Source of the DNA: Bradyrhizobium cosmicum
GTDB lineage: Bacteria > Pseudomonadota > Alphaproteobacteria > Rhizobiales > Xanthobacteraceae
Direction of reading: 5' to 3'
NCBI RefSeq assembly: GCF_007290395.2
Contig: NZ_CP041656.2
Coordinates: forward strand, 2,666,001-2,730,000
Length of the DNA: 64,000 bases
Positions 24,187 to 30,081 of the stretch are shown here, one piece after another. The position numbers and the translations under genes are program-made. Every line of letters begins with the position of its first letter. The stretch's first letter is position 1. The notes under the pieces were generated by a model that made no database searches, was not told the origin of the DNA, and saw only the letters and a list, made by a program, of their open reading frames with translations.

Positions 24187-26115
24187 CTAACTGAAGGCTC
24201 GCGGACGGGGCGCGATTCCCAGCGCCTTGATCCGCGAGGCCAGCGTCGTCGGCTTGATGTCGAGCATTTCGGCCGCGCCGCCGGGGCCGAACACCTTTCC
24301 GGCGCAGGCCTCCAGCGCGGCCAGGATATTGGCGCGCTCGTGATCGCGCAGCTCCGCTGACGTCATGACGGCCGGGCGAGCGTCGGCCTTCTGACGCGCG
24401 GCGCTGGTTACGGGCTGTGCGCCGGAAGGGTCGGGCAGGTCGATGCGCAAGCGGCCGTTCTGCGACAGGATCGCGGCGCGCTCGATCACGTTCTGCAATT
24501 CGCGGACGTTGCCGGGCCAGTCGTAGCGGGACAGCCGCCGCGCATCGCCTTCCGACAGGCGCAAATTCGATTTCAGCGCCTTGCTCTCGCGCGTCAGAAA
24601 ATGTTGCGCCAGCAGGGGGATGTCCTCGCGCCGTTCGCGCAAGGGCACGGTCTCGATCGGAAACACGTTGAGGCGGAAATAGAGGTCCTCGCGGAAGCGT
24701 CCGCGCTGCACCTCCTGCTTGAGATCGCGATTGGTCGCGGCGATGACGCGGACGTCGACCGCGCGCGTGCGCTCCTCGCCGACGCGCTCGAAATTGCCTT
24801 CCTGCAGCACCCGCAGCAGCTTGCCCTGCAGTTCGAGCGGGATCTCGCCGACCTCGTCGAGGAATAGCGTGCCGCCGTCGGCGAGCTCGAAGCGGCCGAT
24901 GCGGTCGCGCATCGCACCGGTGAAGGCGCCGCGGACGTGGCCGAAGAACTCGCTCTCGAACAATTCGCGCGGGATCGCGGCGCAGTTGACGCGGATCAGC
25001 GGCCGGTCGCTGCGGCTGGAGTCCTCGTGGATGGCGCGCGCGATCAACTCCTTGCCGGTGCCGGACTCGCCGGTGATCATCACCGCCGCCGTGGTCGGCG
25101 CCACCAGCTTGACCTGGCGCAGCGTCTTCTGGATCGCCTCGCTTTGGCCGATGATGCCGCGCGGGTTGGTCTCGATGCGGATTTCTTCCTGGAGATAGGC
25201 GTTTTCGAGCTCCAGCCGCTCGCGCAGGCGGTCGACTTCGGCGAGCGCTGCATGCAGCTTCTCGTCGGCCTCGCGCCGCTGGCTGACGTCGCGAAACACC
25301 ACGACGGCGCCGACCACCACGCCGCGGTCGCGGATCGGGGTGGAGGTGTACTCGACCCAGGCCGGCGAGCCGTCCTTGCGCCAGAACACCTCGCCGTCGA
25401 CCTGGTGCACCGCGCCGTCGCGGAACGCCGCGTAGATCGGGCAATCGTGGTCGGGATAGTGGCTGCCGTCGTGATGGGTGTGGTGGACGATCGGGTGGAT
25501 CTCCTTGCCGACCAGCTCCTCGGCGGTCCAGCCGAGCATGCGCTCGGCCGCCGGGTTCACGAAGGTGGTCTTGCCCTCGGCATTGACGCCATAGATGCCT
25601 TCGCCGGCCGCGCGCAGGATCAGCTGGTTCTCGCGCTCGATATCCTGGAAGACGCGCTCCACCCGCTGCCAGGTCGAGATGCCGCTGCGCATGTGGTCCT
25701 CGGCGGCGGCATCGACATTGCGGCGGCGGCGGGCGTCGAGATCGGTGAGGGTGAGCTGCACCAGCGTACGTCCGTCATGGGGCAGGACGCAGCCGGCATA
25801 TTCGAGCCTGAGCGTCTGTCCGGTGGCATGGCGCGGGTTGAGCGACGTGGTCCAGTAGGCGCCCTTGTGCAGCACGGCCTGGGTGAACACGGTGAGGGCC
25901 GGAAGTTCGCCGGCGTGAAGGGTGCTGGCGCTGGTCTGGCGCAGCAGCGCGCGGTCGTAGCCGAGCAGGGCGCAGGCGGCCGGATTGGCATCGACGATCT
26001 GGTCTCCATAGGGATCGACCAGGAGGGTCGCCTCGACCGATGCCTCGAACGCTGCAACGCGCGGATCGAGGGGCTGGGCGACGTCGTCGTGGGGGAGTAT
26101 TGGCGTCGGCGTCAT
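24187..26115 (-). CDS. PAS-PAS sigma-54-dependent activator, likely regulator of the cyanate operon
   Basis: A 642-residue enhancer-binding protein. Two PAS domains (about 15-110 and 160-285) are followed by a linker helix and an AAA+ domain (about 320-550). The AAA+ part has Walker A GESGTGKE, the sigma-54 contact loop GAFTGA and Walker [12 protein letters not shown]. The C-terminal Fis-type HTH reads [23 protein letters not shown]2 contains an unusual His-rich stretch [15 protein letters not shown], which could bind metal or cofactor. The ATG at 26115 touches the first of three palindromes in the shared control region, so autoregulation is likely. The longer open frame upstream is not part of the gene. 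Confidence 0.9.
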
Positions 26116-26168
26116 TACGAAATCTCGTAAATTAATTACGAATTTTCGTATATCACGAGTTTTCGTAA
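26115..26168. promoter_or_regulatory. Three tandem 16-bp palindromes, probable upstream activating sites
   Basis: TTACGA-AATC-TCGTAA (26115-26130), TTACGA-ATTT-TCGTAT (26136-26151) and TCACGA-GTTT-TCGTAA (26153-26168) are three copies of one dyad. They lie 60-110 bases upstream of a sigma-54 promoter, the standard position for enhancer sites of sigma-54 activators. They also abut the activator's own start codon. Confidence 0.85.
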
Positions 26169-26225
26169 TGGCCAAGCCCGGCGGAAAATGCTGCGTCATC
26201 AGGGCACTGGCCGCTCCTGAGGCGG

Positions 26226-26240
26226 TGGCATGCTCCTTGC
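26226..26240 (+). promoter_or_regulatory. Sigma-54 (-24/-12) promoter of the cyanate operon
   Basis: TGGCATG-N4-TTGC matches the sigma-54 consensus, with GG and GC exactly 10 bases apart. Transcription should start near 26252, about 23 bases before the first gene. Confidence 0.88.
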
Positions 26241-26274
26241 GTAATTCCTGCTGCAATGACGCGCAGGAGGTCCG

Positions 26275-27654
26275 ATGTCCATTTTCGACAATCCGTTTGA
26301 TCCCGATCGCAAGCTTCGAGCCGGCTGTGCCTGTGGCCAACACCAATCCGCGGCCGAGCACGAGCAGGCCACGGCGCTGCACTGCGAGCCCGTCGAGAGC
26401 GAGGAGAAGCGCTACGAGGGCGTCGTCGCCTCCGCGGTGATGCGTGCGATGTTTCCGCAGGACGTGGCGCGGCGCGCCTTCCTGAAATCGGTGGGCGCGT
26501 CCACGGCGCTCGCCGCGCTCTCGCAATTCTTTCCGATCAAGACGGCGACCGAGGTGTTCGCTCAAACCGGCACGCCCGAGAAGAAGGACCTCAAGGTCGG
26601 CTTCATCCCGATCACCTGCGCCACCCCGATCATCATGGCGGCGCCGATGGGCTTCTACGCCAAGCATGGTCTCAACGTCGAAGTGGTCAAGACCGCCGGC
26701 TGGGCCGTGATCCGCGACAAGACCATCAACAAGGAATACGACGCAGCCCACATGCTGGCGCCGATGCCGCTCGCGATCTCGCTGGGCTTGGGGGCCAACG
26801 CCATTCCCTTCGCCGTGCCCGCGATCGAGAACATCAACGGGCAGGGCATCGTGCTGGCGAACAAGCACAAGGACAAGCGCGATCCAAAGGACTGGAAGGG
26901 GCTGAAGTTCGCGATCCCGTTCGACTATTCCATGCACAACTACCTGCTGCGCTATTATCTCGCCGAGCACGGGATCGATCCCGACACCGATGTGCAGCTG
27001 CGCTCGGTGCCGCCGCCGGAGATGGTTGCGAACCTGCGCGCCGACAATATCGACGGCTTCCTCGCGCCCGACAACATCTGCCAGCGCGCGATTTATGACG
27101 GCGTCGGTTTCATGCACCTGCTGTCCAAGGAGATCTGGGACGGCCATCCCTGCTGCAGCTTCGCCGCCAGCCGCGAGTTCATCACCACCGCGCCGAACAG
27201 CTTTGCCGCGCTGACCCGTGCCATCGTCGATGCGACCGCCTATGCATCCAAGGCCGAGAACCGCAAGCAGATCGCGGAAGCCATCGCGCCGGCCAACTAC
27301 ATCAACGCGCCCGTGACGGTGCTGGAGCAGGTGTTGACCGGCACCTATGCCGACGGTCTCGGCGGCGTGAAGACCGACGCCAAGCGCGTCGATTTCGATC
27401 CGTTCCCCTGGCAGTCCTTCGCGGTGTGGATGCTGACGCAGATGAAGCGCTGGGGCCAGATCAAGGGCGACGTCGACTATAAGGCGGTCGCCGAGCAGGT
27501 CTATCTGGCGACGGATACGAAGAAGCTGATGACCGAGATGGGCCTGTCGCCGCCGGCGAGCGCGTACAAATCGTTCACGGTGATGGGCAAGAATTTCGAT
27601 CCGGCCAAGCCGGAGGACTATGTCGCGAGCTTCAAGATCAGGAAGGCGTCGTGA
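26275..27654 (+). CDS. Cyanate/nitrate-type ABC transporter substrate-binding protein
   Basis: A 459-residue NrtA/CmpA/CynA-type periplasmic binding protein. A Tat signal (ARRAFLKSVGAS, about residues 66-77) follows an unusual 60-residue N-terminus with Cys and His residues (CACGQHQ...LHC). The mature domain contains VGFIPITCATPIIMAAPMGF, characteristic of the nitrate/bicarbonate/cyanate group. CAGGAGG precedes the ATG. The cyanase gene at the end of the operon makes cyanate the most likely ligand. A repeat element separates it from the permease gene. Confidence 0.85.
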   Translation: MSIFDNPFDPDRKLRAGCACGQHQSAAEHEQATALHCEPVESEEKRYEGVVASAVMRAMFPQDVARRAFLKSVGASTALAALSQFFPIKTATEVFAQTGTPEKKDLKVGFIPITCATPIIMAAPMGFYAKHGLNVEVVKTAGWAVIRDKTINKEYDAAHMLAPMPLAISLGLGANAIPFAVPAIENINGQGIVLANKHKDKRDPKDWKGLKFAIPFDYSMHNYLLRYYLAEHGIDPDTDVQLRSVPPPEMVANLRADNIDGFLAPDNICQRAIYDGVGFMHLLSKEIWDGHPCCSFAASREFITTAPNSFAALTRAIVDATAYASKAENRKQIAEAIAPANYINAPVTVLEQVLTGTYADGLGGVKTDAKRVDFDPFPWQSFAVWMLTQMKRWGQIKGDVDYKAVAEQVYLATDTKKLMTEMGLSPPASAYKSFTVMGKNFDPAKPEDYVASFKIRKAS

Positions 27655-27674: not shown

Positions 27675-27811
27675 GCCTCTCCCCGCATGCGGGGAGAGGC
27701 CGACGCGCGTAGCGCGGCGGGTGAGGGGGGCTCTCCGCGAGTCCGTCTGTCACCTCCCTTGCGGAGAGCCCCCCTCACCCCAACCCTCTCCCCGCACGCG
27801 GGGAGAGGGAG
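27675..27811. repeat. Intergenic inverted repeat (CCTCTCCCCGC family) inside the cyanate operon
   Basis: The outer arms contain the palindromes CCTCTCCCCGCATGCGGGGAG and CCTCTCCCCGCACGCGGGGAG. The inner arms GGTGAGGGGGGCTCTCCGC and GCGGAGAGCCCCCCTCACC are perfect inverted copies. The right edge (GGGGAGAGGGAG) lies directly before the permease ATG and forms its ribosome binding site. Confidence 0.92.
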
Positions 27812-28654
27812 ATGACCACCCCCTCCCTCCGCCTCCGCGCCGGCCTCGTCTCGATCGCGCTGCTCGCGGCGTTCCTTGGCATCTGGCATCTCGCCACGCG
27901 TTCGACCGCGCCGGTCGCAACGATGAGCCCGGAATACGCCAAGCTGATGGGTCTGACCGCGACGCAGGGCAAATCCGCGATGCCCGGGCCGCTCGATGTC
28001 GGGGCAAAGTTGTGGGAGCATCTGAAGCGGCCGTTCTACGACAACGGGCCGAACGACAAGGGGCTCGGCATTCAGCTTGGCTATTCGATCGCGCGCGTCG
28101 GGCTCGGCTATCTGCTCGCGGTGCTCGTCGCCATCCCGCTCGGCTTTCTGATCGGGATGTCGCCGCTGCTCAGCAAGGCGCTCGATCCGTTCATCCAGGT
28201 GCTCAAGCCGATCTCGCCGCTGGCCTGGATGCCGCTGGCGCTTTACACTATCAAGGATTCTTCGATCTCGGCGATCTTCGTCATCTTCATCTGCTCGATC
28301 TGGCCGATGCTGCTCAACACCGTGTTTGGCGTGGCGAGCGTGCGGAAGGAATGGATCAACGTCGCGCGCACACTGGAGGTCGGCACACTCCGGCGCGCCT
28401 TCACGGTGATTCTGCCGGCGGCCGCGCCGACGATCCTGACCGGCATGCGCATCTCCATCGGGATCGCCTGGCTCGTGATCGTCGCCGCCGAGATGCTCGT
28501 CGGCGGCACCGGCATCGGCTATTTCGTCTGGAACGAGTGGAACAACCTCTCGATCACCAACGTGATCATCGCGATCCTGCTGATCGGGATCGTCGGCATG
28601 CTGCTTGACCAGATCCTCGCGCGCTTCACGCGCATGGTCACCTTTCCGGAGTAG
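27812..28654 (+). CDS. ABC transporter permease of the cyanate operon
   Basis: A 280-residue inner-membrane permease of the NrtB/SsuC/TauC type with about six helices. The cytoplasmic coupling loop is in ARTLEVGTLRRAFTVILPAA. It forms the channel with the ATPase encoded next. Translation is predicted to use GGGAGAGGGAG from the preceding repeat element, one base before the ATG region. The GTG of the ATPase gene lies 5 bases after its stop. Confidence 0.9.
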   Translation: MTTPSLRLRAGLVSIALLAAFLGIWHLATRSTAPVATMSPEYAKLMGLTATQGKSAMPGPLDVGAKLWEHLKRPFYDNGPNDKGLGIQLGYSIARVGLGYLLAVLVAIPLGFLIGMSPLLSKALDPFIQVLKPISPLAWMPLALYTIKDSSISAIFVIFICSIWPMLLNTVFGVASVRKEWINVARTLEVGTLRRAFTVILPAAAPTILTGMRISIGIAWLVIVAAEMLVGGTGIGYFVWNEWNNLSITNVIIAILLIGIVGMLLDQILARFTRMVTFPE

Positions 28655-28659
28655 GGGCT

Positions 28660-29583
28660 GTGACCGACAAATTCGTCTCGATCGAAGGCATAGCAAAACG
28701 CTATCCGGGCGCCAATGGCGCCACGACGGCCGTGTTCGAGAATCTGTGGCTGTCGATGGCGCGCGGCGAGTTCTGCTGCGTGATCGGCCATTCCGGCTGC
28801 GGCAAGACCACGGTGCTCAACATCCTCGCCGGCCTCGATGCGCCGAGCGAAGGCGCCGTCATCGTCGACGGGCAGGCGATCTCCGGTACCAGCCTCGACC
28901 GGGCCGTGATCTTCCAGAGCCACGCGCTGCTGCCCTGGCGCACCGTGCTCGGCAATGTTTCCTACGCGGTAACCTCGAAATGGCCGAAATGGGACCGCGC
29001 CAAGGTCAAGGCGCATGCGCAGAAATTCATCGACCTCGTCGGCCTGACAGGCTCGGAACACAAGCGCCCCTCGGAACTGTCAGGCGGCATGAAGCAGCGC
29101 GTCGGCATCGCGCGTGCGCTGTCGATCACGCCGAAGATGATGCTGATGGACGAGCCGTTCTCGGCGCTGGACGCGCTGACGCGCGGCACGCTGCAGGACG
29201 AGGTGCGGCGCATTTGCCTCGAGACCGGGCAGACCGCGTTCATGATCACCCATGACGTCGACGAGGCGATTTATCTCGCCGACAAGATTTTCCTGATGAC
29301 CAACGGTCCCGGCGCGGTGCTGGCGGAGGTCGTCGAAAATCCCTTGCCCAGGGATCGCGGCCGTACCGATCTACACCGCCACCCGCTGTACTACGCGCTG
29401 CGCAACCACATCATCGATTTCCTGGTGACGCGCAGCAAGACGTTCACCACCGAAAGGCCCGATCACGATCCGCGCCACGTGCCGGTGGTGCATATCGGCA
29501 AGCCCGGGCTGACGATCGCGTCGACCGGCGAAGAGCAACGACAGACCTGGACACCCGGGACCAGTCCCGGATTGACTGCTTAA
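28660..29583 (+). CDS. ABC transporter ATPase of the cyanate operon
   Basis: A 307-residue NrtD/SsuB-type ATPase. Walker A is GHSGCGKTT, the signature is LSGGMKQR, Walker B is MLMDEPFSAL, and the switch His is in FMITHDVDEA. The start is GTG. About 40 residues at the C-terminus (after FTTERPDHDPRH) extend past the usual end. The last dozen codons contain CCCGGGACCAGTCCCGG, resembling the GTCATGCCCGGGC intergenic repeat, so the tail may have been added by a repeat. Confidence 0.9.
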   Translation: MTDKFVSIEGIAKRYPGANGATTAVFENLWLSMARGEFCCVIGHSGCGKTTVLNILAGLDAPSEGAVIVDGQAISGTSLDRAVIFQSHALLPWRTVLGNVSYAVTSKWPKWDRAKVKAHAQKFIDLVGLTGSEHKRPSELSGGMKQRVGIARALSITPKMMLMDEPFSALDALTRGTLQDEVRRICLETGQTAFMITHDVDEAIYLADKIFLMTNGPGAVLAEVVENPLPRDRGRTDLHRHPLYYALRNHIIDFLVTRSKTFTTERPDHDPRHVPVVHIGKPGLTIASTGEEQRQTWTPGTSPGLTA

Positions 29584-29598
29584 GAAGGGAGACCTGAC

Positions 29599-30081
29599 AT
29601 GAAACGCGAAGACCTCACCGAGAAGCTGCTCGACATCAAGCGCGAGAAGGGCTGGACCTGGAAACACATCTGCGAGCAGATCGGCGGTTATTCCGAGGTG
29701 CTGATCGTCGGCGCGATTCTCGGCCAGATGAAGCTGACGAAGCCGCAGGCGGCCAACGCCGGTGAGCTGTTCGGCCTGTCGAAGTCGGAAGTTTCGATGC
29801 TGAACGAAACGCCGATGCGCGGGATGCCCATGCCGCCGACCGATCCGCTGATCTATCGATTCTACGAACTGGTCATGGTCAACGGACCGGCCTGGAAGGC
29901 GCTGATCGAGGAGGAGTACGGCGACGGCATCATGTCGGCGATCGACTTCGACATGGTGATGGAGCGCCTGCCCAACCCGAAGGGCGACCGCGTCAAGATC
30001 ACGATGAGCGGCAAGTTCCTGCCGTACAAATATTACGGTGCCAGCGGCAACGTGCCCGAGTACGGCTTCAAGGAGGGGTGA
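29599..30081 (+). CDS. cynS: Cyanase (cyanate hydratase/lyase)
   Basis: A 160-residue cyanase that converts cyanate and bicarbonate to ammonia and CO2. Catalytic residues fall in YRFYEL (Arg and Glu) and GIMSAIDF (Ser). The N-terminal helical domain and C-terminal KYYGASGNVPEYGF are complete. It lies 15 bases after the ATPase gene behind AAGGGAG. As last gene of the operon it identifies the substrate of the transporter and gives the cell a nitrogen-scavenging or detoxification route. Confidence 0.96.
   Translation: MKREDLTEKLLDIKREKGWTWKHICEQIGGYSEVLIVGAILGQMKLTKPQAANAGELFGLSKSEVSMLNETPMRGMPMPPTDPLIYRFYELVMVNGPAWKALIEEEYGDGIMSAIDFDMVMERLPNPKGDRVKITMSGKFLPYKYYGASGNVPEYGFKEG

Follow-up and report, generated by a model that had tools for sequence, protein, structure and literature searches.

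A 64,000-nucleotide stretch of the Bradyrhizobium cosmicum genome (assembly GCF_007290395.2, contig NZ_CP041656.2, positions 2,666,001 to 2,730,000; hereafter the window, with coordinates counted from its first base) very probably holds a CynF system, that is, an activator orthologous to CynF and dedicated to cyanate use, an enhancer made of three dyads, and a sigma-54 promoter for the cyanate operon cynABDS. The anatomy of this locus, its homology and synteny with the CynF locus, the co-inheritance of activator and dyads, and the fixed geometry of the dyads were computed here. Because dyads and activator are inherited together and the triple keeps a fixed spacing, the dyads are most likely the activator's sites, as predicted from these comparisons. 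A preliminary description of this DNA had contrasted sigma-54 control with CynR and NtcA as a novelty; that claim falls away, and sigma-54 control of cyanate genes was rejected as a new finding, since the main text of PMC6627978 already describes CynF control of cynABDS with mutants. Sigma-54/CynF control being known, what lies beyond it is the rigid three-site layout in many relatives.

Three dyads lie between a divergent activator gene and cynABDS

The activator gene (24187..26115, minus strand) encodes a CynF-type protein of 642 amino acids in which a domain search and the sequence itself identify two PAS domains (PAS1 and PAS2), a sigma-54 AAA+ domain with GAFTGA, and a Fis-type helix-turn-helix. 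Its ATG (26113-26115) shares one base with dyad 1 (26115..26130; core 26117-26128), an exact TTACGA-N4-TCGTAA. Dyad 2 (26136..26151; core 26138-26149) lies 21 base pairs (bp) past dyad 1, and dyad 3 (26153..26168; core 26155-26166) 17 bp past dyad 2, each with one mismatch to this long dyad, and all three carry the 12-base core ACGA-N4-TCGT without a mismatch. The preliminary description had placed three copies of the long dyad at 26115, 26136 and 26153; these positions stand, but only the first copy is exact. Farther downstream, a -24/-12 promoter, TGGCATGCTCCTTGCG, was found at 26226..26241 on the plus strand with one mismatch to TGGCAYRNNNNTTGCW, its GG 72 bp past the start of the dyad 3 core. 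Both a -24/-12 promoter upstream of the cyanate operon and a divergent PAS-PAS sigma-54 activator with GAFTGA at the edge of dyad 1 had been proposed earlier and were recovered here. A sigma-70 promoter for the activator gene was sought at dyad 1 and the activator start, and none was found there.

The genome (7.27 Mb, a single contig with one sigma-54 gene) contains four sites matching the long dyad with at most one mismatch, three of them within these 54 bp, and the reversed-pattern control at the same threshold matches three sites genome-wide. The fourth near-match (G000:C1:975752) was considered as a second target and rejected, being at the chance level given by that control. The core triple with spacings of 21-23 and 17-18 bp and at most four mismatches in total occurs once in the window, both strands having been scanned, and at three mismatches or fewer it occurs only once in this genome. 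The sigma-54 site with at most one mismatch was found 183 times genome-wide versus 135 times for its reversed control; with this mild enrichment the motif by itself is weak evidence, and its weight comes from the conservation of its place.

The triple recurs with fixed spacing upstream of related activator genes

Related loci were picked by activator similarity alone. The activator N-terminus was the query against 397 genomes from the order and 398 from the phylum, and named genomes were added by an alignment scan as the best 80 of the matches listed. The order search matched 47 genomes, and the neighbourhoods exclude the partial or PAS2-only G422, G375, G037 and G362 together with the same-genus G115, G126 and G133; the phylum search matched 72, of which ten new ones were taken and the remainder, nearly all PAS2-only, left out. 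Subtracting L231 (contig end) and three duplicates from 144 activator loci left 140 distinct upstream regions from Alpha- and Gammaproteobacteria, which were searched for a triple with spacings of 19-25 and 15-20 bp, called significant when matched by fewer than 5% of 200 dinucleotide shuffles. A significant triple was present in 130 of the 140 regions, and 129 of these were matched by at most 1 in 200 shuffles. Among the 130, the spacing between dyads 1 and 2 was 21 bp in 62, 22 bp in 49 and 23 bp in 19, and that between dyads 2 and 3 was 17 bp in 123, 18 bp in six and 19 bp in one; all three regions facing a nit1C cluster have the 18-bp spacing. A -24/-12 site with at most two mismatches follows the triple in 128 of 130; in the other two, the stretch is incomplete (L234) or no site is found (L290).

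The genes facing these activators were also tabulated. cynS lies divergently downstream in 131 of the 144 loci, where the first gene encodes a binding protein in 115, an FNT channel (identified by Pfam, PF01226) in 11 and neither in five, among them L259 with permease, ATPase and cynS. A nit1C cluster, identified by a Nit6803-family nitrilase with MSMEG_0572- and MSMEG_0568-family genes, is downstream in three (L226, L306 and L312). The other ten comprise seven incomplete stretches (L218, L231, L234, L262, L264, L299 and L311), L272 with ATP-binding cassette (ABC) genes and no cynS within 7 kb, L275 with a cynA-type gene 6.3 kb from the activator, and L277 with cynS-FNT 5.2 kb away on the activator's other side. 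Beside cynS, the FNT gene replaces CynABD in L224, L227, L228, L229, L230, L236, L241, L246, L247, L293 and L294, and its product is a candidate cyanate channel.

In an activator tree of 61 rows, which excludes L059, L240, L241, L268 and L278 (fewer than 500 readable activator residues), the nearest named relatives of the window activator are from Bradyrhizobium. The three nit1C activators form one clade with 100/100 support; this clade adjoins long-branched rows, so that its neighbours in the tree are unsure. The window activator is not NitA, as its divergent target is cynABDS and the NitA-like rows form a separate clade.

Activator and dyads are inherited together within the genus

Within the genus, 195 genomes were surveyed for the spaced triple (at most three mismatches) and for the activator N-terminus (amino acids 1-290, E ≤ 1e-40). 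Each was present in 84 genomes and the two occurred together in 83, where the triple had no mismatch in 78 and one mismatch in five. One genome (G116) has only the triple pattern, at three mismatches and with no activator match, and another (G150) has only an activator fragment (amino acids 59-290) in a stretch ending at a contig edge. The dyads that the preliminary description had expected before cynS operons of related genomes were thus found widely, and the dedicated sigma-54 system it had envisaged for the cyanate operon is supported by this co-inheritance and by the recurring triple.

Thirty-five genus genomes, with loci chosen by cynS, were inspected more closely and scored for the long 16-base dyad and later for the 12-base core; cynS was present in all 35. 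The activator is divergent from the binding-protein gene in 14, and each of these shows three dyads together with a -24/-12 site (at most one mismatch). Eleven others carry the binding-protein operon with no activator next to it, and in these there was no dyad with three or fewer mismatches in the 400 bp before cynA, no triple with four or fewer mismatches anywhere in the examined stretch, and no -24/-12 site either. Among the remaining genomes, L052 ends before the binding-protein gene and nine carry cynS with no ABC genes in the stretch, two of these stretches (L036 and L044) being incomplete. The preliminary description had held that a lack of dyads beside orthologous operons would tell against it; such a lack was seen in 11 operons, all without an adjacent activator, but in none of the 14 where the activator adjoins.

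In all 11 activator-less operons, cynA is preceded at 96-130 bp by the end of a conserved sulfurtransferase gene. The same gene lies beyond the activator in seven of the 14 activator loci, about 2.1-2.2 kb before cynA in five and 3.8-4.2 kb in two; the stretches of the remaining seven do not include it. Loss of activator and enhancer as one unit seems the simpler reading, because the module is also present in other genera and families. The dyad-less cynA operons behind the sulfurtransferase gene are L035, L038, L046, L048, L049, L055, L061, L062, L063, L066 and L067. In L047 (G011) and L291, most of the transporter genes appear to have been lost, the binding-protein match being cut and cynS following soon after, and the activator and dyads are kept.

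Dyads and promoter are likely to be in helical phase

Phasing was assessed in the 127 of 140 regions where no more than 1 in 200 shuffles matched the triple and the -24/-12 site had two mismatches or fewer. Measured from where the dyad 3 core starts, the -24 GG lies at distances that group into classes with steps of about 11 bp, namely 61-62 bp (2 regions), 69-74 (81), 78-84 (24, of which the value of 78 in L240 depends on a doubtful dyad 3), 92-97 (17), 104 (1) and 113-114 (2). With the activators clustered at 70% identity, which leaves 30 values in 25 clusters, a Rayleigh test gave R 0.67 and p ~1e-6 at 10.5 bp, with the best period near 11.0. In the largest cluster the distance moves by about whole turns, from 70-74 to 62, 82-84 and 94. 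Two points weigh against a strict rule: in a Halomonas-Pseudomonas cluster the move from 95-97 to 81-82 does not amount to a whole turn, and the values depend on one another to some degree. Helical phasing of the dyads to the -24 element is therefore likely, not proven.

The cynABDS operon and the activator protein

The operon lies on the plus strand, 159 bp from the activator, ATG to ATG. An AGGAGG at 26265..26270, read directly in the sequence, is the likely ribosome-binding site of cynA (26275..27654), which encodes a substrate-binding protein matching the Pfam domain NMT1_2. It is followed by cynB (27812..28654), an ABC permease exceeding the TIGR01183 cut-off; cynD (28660..29583), an ABC ATPase with TIGR01184 as best match at a score just below cut-off; and cynS (29599..30081), a cyanase that passes both NCBIfam cut-offs and has Pfam cyanate lyase domains. 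Between cynA and cynB, at 27675-27809, nested G+C-rich inverted repeats resemble a mobile palindromic element, with 24-nucleotide arms at 27676-27699 and 27785-27808 and 23-nucleotide arms at 27719-27741 and 27758-27780. In the operon neighbourhood there is no LysR or CRP-type regulator of the CynR or NtcA kind; the divergent gene is the sigma-54 activator, and domain search identifies a regulator three genes beyond as TetR-type.

The helix-turn-helix match of the window activator is weak (HTH_8, 19.9 bits versus a Pfam cut-off of 22), and a Pfam search finds no such match at all in the activator of the Pseudomonas mendocina cyn locus L258, with which the window activator shares 59% identity over 632 amino acids. 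A His-rich stretch in PAS2, described earlier as odd, is indeed present, but H207, H211 and C225 are invariant among 42 aligned activator N-termini, and close variants of HH..DG..CPI occur in six of nine inspected loci that match in PAS2 only. By sequence, the stretch thus belongs to an ordinary, common PAS type, and it was ruled out as a special feature. The predicted structure of the PAS pair (mean predicted local distance difference test score 82.9, predicted template modelling score 0.47) has generic PAS structures as neighbours, with query TM-scores of 0.38 or less among the 50 matches listed; with neighbours so generic and low-scoring, no ligand is proposed from this model.

Proposed mechanism and alternatives

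In the mechanism we propose, three CynF dimers on the three ACGA-N4-TCGT dyads would gather an active hexamer or ring on the DNA, as NorR does, and the PAS domains would read the signal, presumably cyanate or a derivative. The AAA+ ring would then reach across about seven helical turns to contact sigma-54 RNA polymerase at 26226-26241 and open the cynABDS promoter. As dyad 1 abuts the activator start codon, bound CynF may also hold back its own gene through this dyad, and the overlap would fit such autoregulation.

The operon might answer to nitrogen starvation or a redox signal instead of cyanate, with CynF sensing something general, which we regard as unlikely. In Pseudomonas pseudoalcaligenes (oleovorans) CECT5344, cyanase without cyanate is low under nitrogen starvation, nitrate and glutamate, and ammonium takes precedence over cyanate (Table 1 of PMC6627978), as a general nitrogen signal could explain; PAS2 is of a common type, and the NitA-like branch serves nit1C instead. 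Yet the same paper gives cyanase values of 176 under nitrogen starvation versus 2677 with cyanate, a rise of more than 10-fold (PMC6627978), and cynS or nit1C is downstream in all but ten of the 144 loci, seven of those ten being incomplete.

It is very improbable that the dyads only repress the activator's own gene and that cynABDS is activated through other sites or by activator in solution. The overlap of dyad 1 with the start codon and the position of the triple, nearly always upstream of the activator gene, would suit such an arrangement. However, beyond the upstream regions of the activators, two more triples with at most three mismatches were found in the loci (1.71 Mb, overlaps counted twice), and both precede cyn genes that are 5-6 kb away from the activator, one 228 bp before the cynA-type gene of L275 and the other 260 bp before cynS in L277; upstream of the L275 activator itself there is no significant triple. 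The quantised distance from dyad 3 to the -24 element would also be needless for self-repression. In L277, a Paraglaciecola metagenome-assembled genome, the triple that belongs to the activator faces, as judged by eye, one gene for a small NTF2-like protein and one for a porin, and this side is a possible second CynF target.

A different DNA-binding protein using the dyads, such as a global nitrogen regulator, while the divergent activator acts elsewhere, is likewise very improbable: the ammonium repression of cynABDS in CECT5344 (main text of PMC6627978) would accord with it, but dyads and activator are gained or lost together in the genus, and the source genome has a single such triple at three mismatches or fewer. 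A chance repeat in an A+T-rich intergenic stretch, to which the lack of enrichment of the single long dyad in the window would lend itself (6 found versus 8.4 expected at three mismatches or fewer), is refuted by the recurrence of the geometry, in excess of what dinucleotide shuffles give, in 83 of the 195 genomes of the genus and in 130 of the 140 regions.

Several points weigh against the CynF reading. The significant triple is missing in ten of the 140 regions (L210, L212, L214, L216, L219, L221, L267, L272, L275 and L295), most with the activator beside cyn genes, and L216 and L221 have no good -24/-12 site either. Partial remnants are seen as a 17-bp pair in L219 and L221 and a 23-bp pair in L295 and L267; L210, L212 and L214 have a good -24/-12 site with a different sequence upstream, perhaps a sign of drifted specificity. 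The reversed triple pattern at three mismatches or fewer matched six of the 195 genus genomes, so that lone three-mismatch matches mean little. The name cynABDS for the window operon presumes a transporter substrate suggested by position and homology, and L258 serves as a stand-in for CECT5344 CynF in the sequence comparison. L267 is from Thiohalophilus thiocyanatoxydans, named for thiocyanate oxidation, where the activator stands beside cynABDS and a 23-bp dyad pair is left with no significant triple.

Taking the loci together, it is probable that CynF and NitA form one proteobacterial family of enhancer-binding proteins responsive to cyano compounds, with their own rigid three-dimer enhancer (21-23 and 17-18 bp, phased to -24). 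One regulatory code would then govern the use of nitrogen from cyanate and from cyanide, with transporters that can replace one another (CynABD, an FNT channel, or none nearby), and activator and enhancer would come and go as a unit within Bradyrhizobium. A finding made in one strain for CynF would thereby become a testable code, in which sequence and geometry flag cyanate or cyanide genes under sigma-54 control where a genome has no annotation; two of the targets so flagged are away from the activator. The NorR enhancer would be joined by a second one built for three dimers, its helical phasing conserved, and the presence/absence series in one genus provides a natural test of the module's role.

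Comparison with known systems

NtcA controls cyanase genes, and both it and CynR belong to other regulator families, which are not known to act with sigma-54. CynR, of LysR type, controls cyanase operons (main text of PMC6627978).

The closest known counterpart is the CECT5344 locus as described in the main-text passages of PMC6627978, where mutation showed CynF to be essential for cynABDS expression, cyanate induces the operon and ammonium represses it, a sigma-54 promoter was proposed before cynA, and similar clusters were noted in alpha-, beta- and gammaproteobacteria. It shares with the window the divergent Fis-like sigma-54 regulator, the gene order cynABDS and the sigma-54 promoter before cynA. 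Upstream dyads are not mentioned in those main-text passages, Figure S1 aside, and no dyad enhancer was found in the searched literature text on cyanase, sigma-54 and nit1C, which included few subscription papers. L258 (P. mendocina EF27), with 268 bp between activator and cynA, hemE after cynS and three perfect dyads, is tied to the CECT5344 locus because both share the 268-bp cynF-cynA gap and hemE, as far as the latter locus is described in PMC6627978. It differs from the window in the spacing of dyads 1 and 2 (23 versus 21 bp) and in the activator-cynA gap (268 versus 159 bp).

NitA, described in PMC11049912 as a Fis-family sigma-54 regulator divergent from nitBCDEFGH in CECT 5344, represents the nit1C branch (L226, L306 and L312), which has a homologous divergent activator and a triple dyad like the window and a TGGCAC promoter. 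It differs in having a nitrilase cluster as target, its own activator clade and the 18-bp spacing of dyads 2 and 3.

Membership of the window activator in NorR was considered and rejected, as it scores 372.8 bits versus the NF003451 cut-off of 476 and has PAS domains with no GAF listed. In NorR-norVW, three enhancer sites are required and act as a scaffold for higher oligomers (PMC2941729). Upstream of norVW in E. coli MG1655 we located GTCA-like dyads, GTCAATTTGAC, GTCATATCGAC and GTCATTTTGAC, spaced by 21 and 24 bp, with 67 bp from the start of the third to the -24 GG; that these are the published NorR sites is our own reading. A divergent activator and three dyads upstream of a sigma-54 promoter are thus common to NorR and the window, whereas NorR has a GAF sensor for nitric oxide in place of PAS-PAS, a different dyad sequence and a different target.

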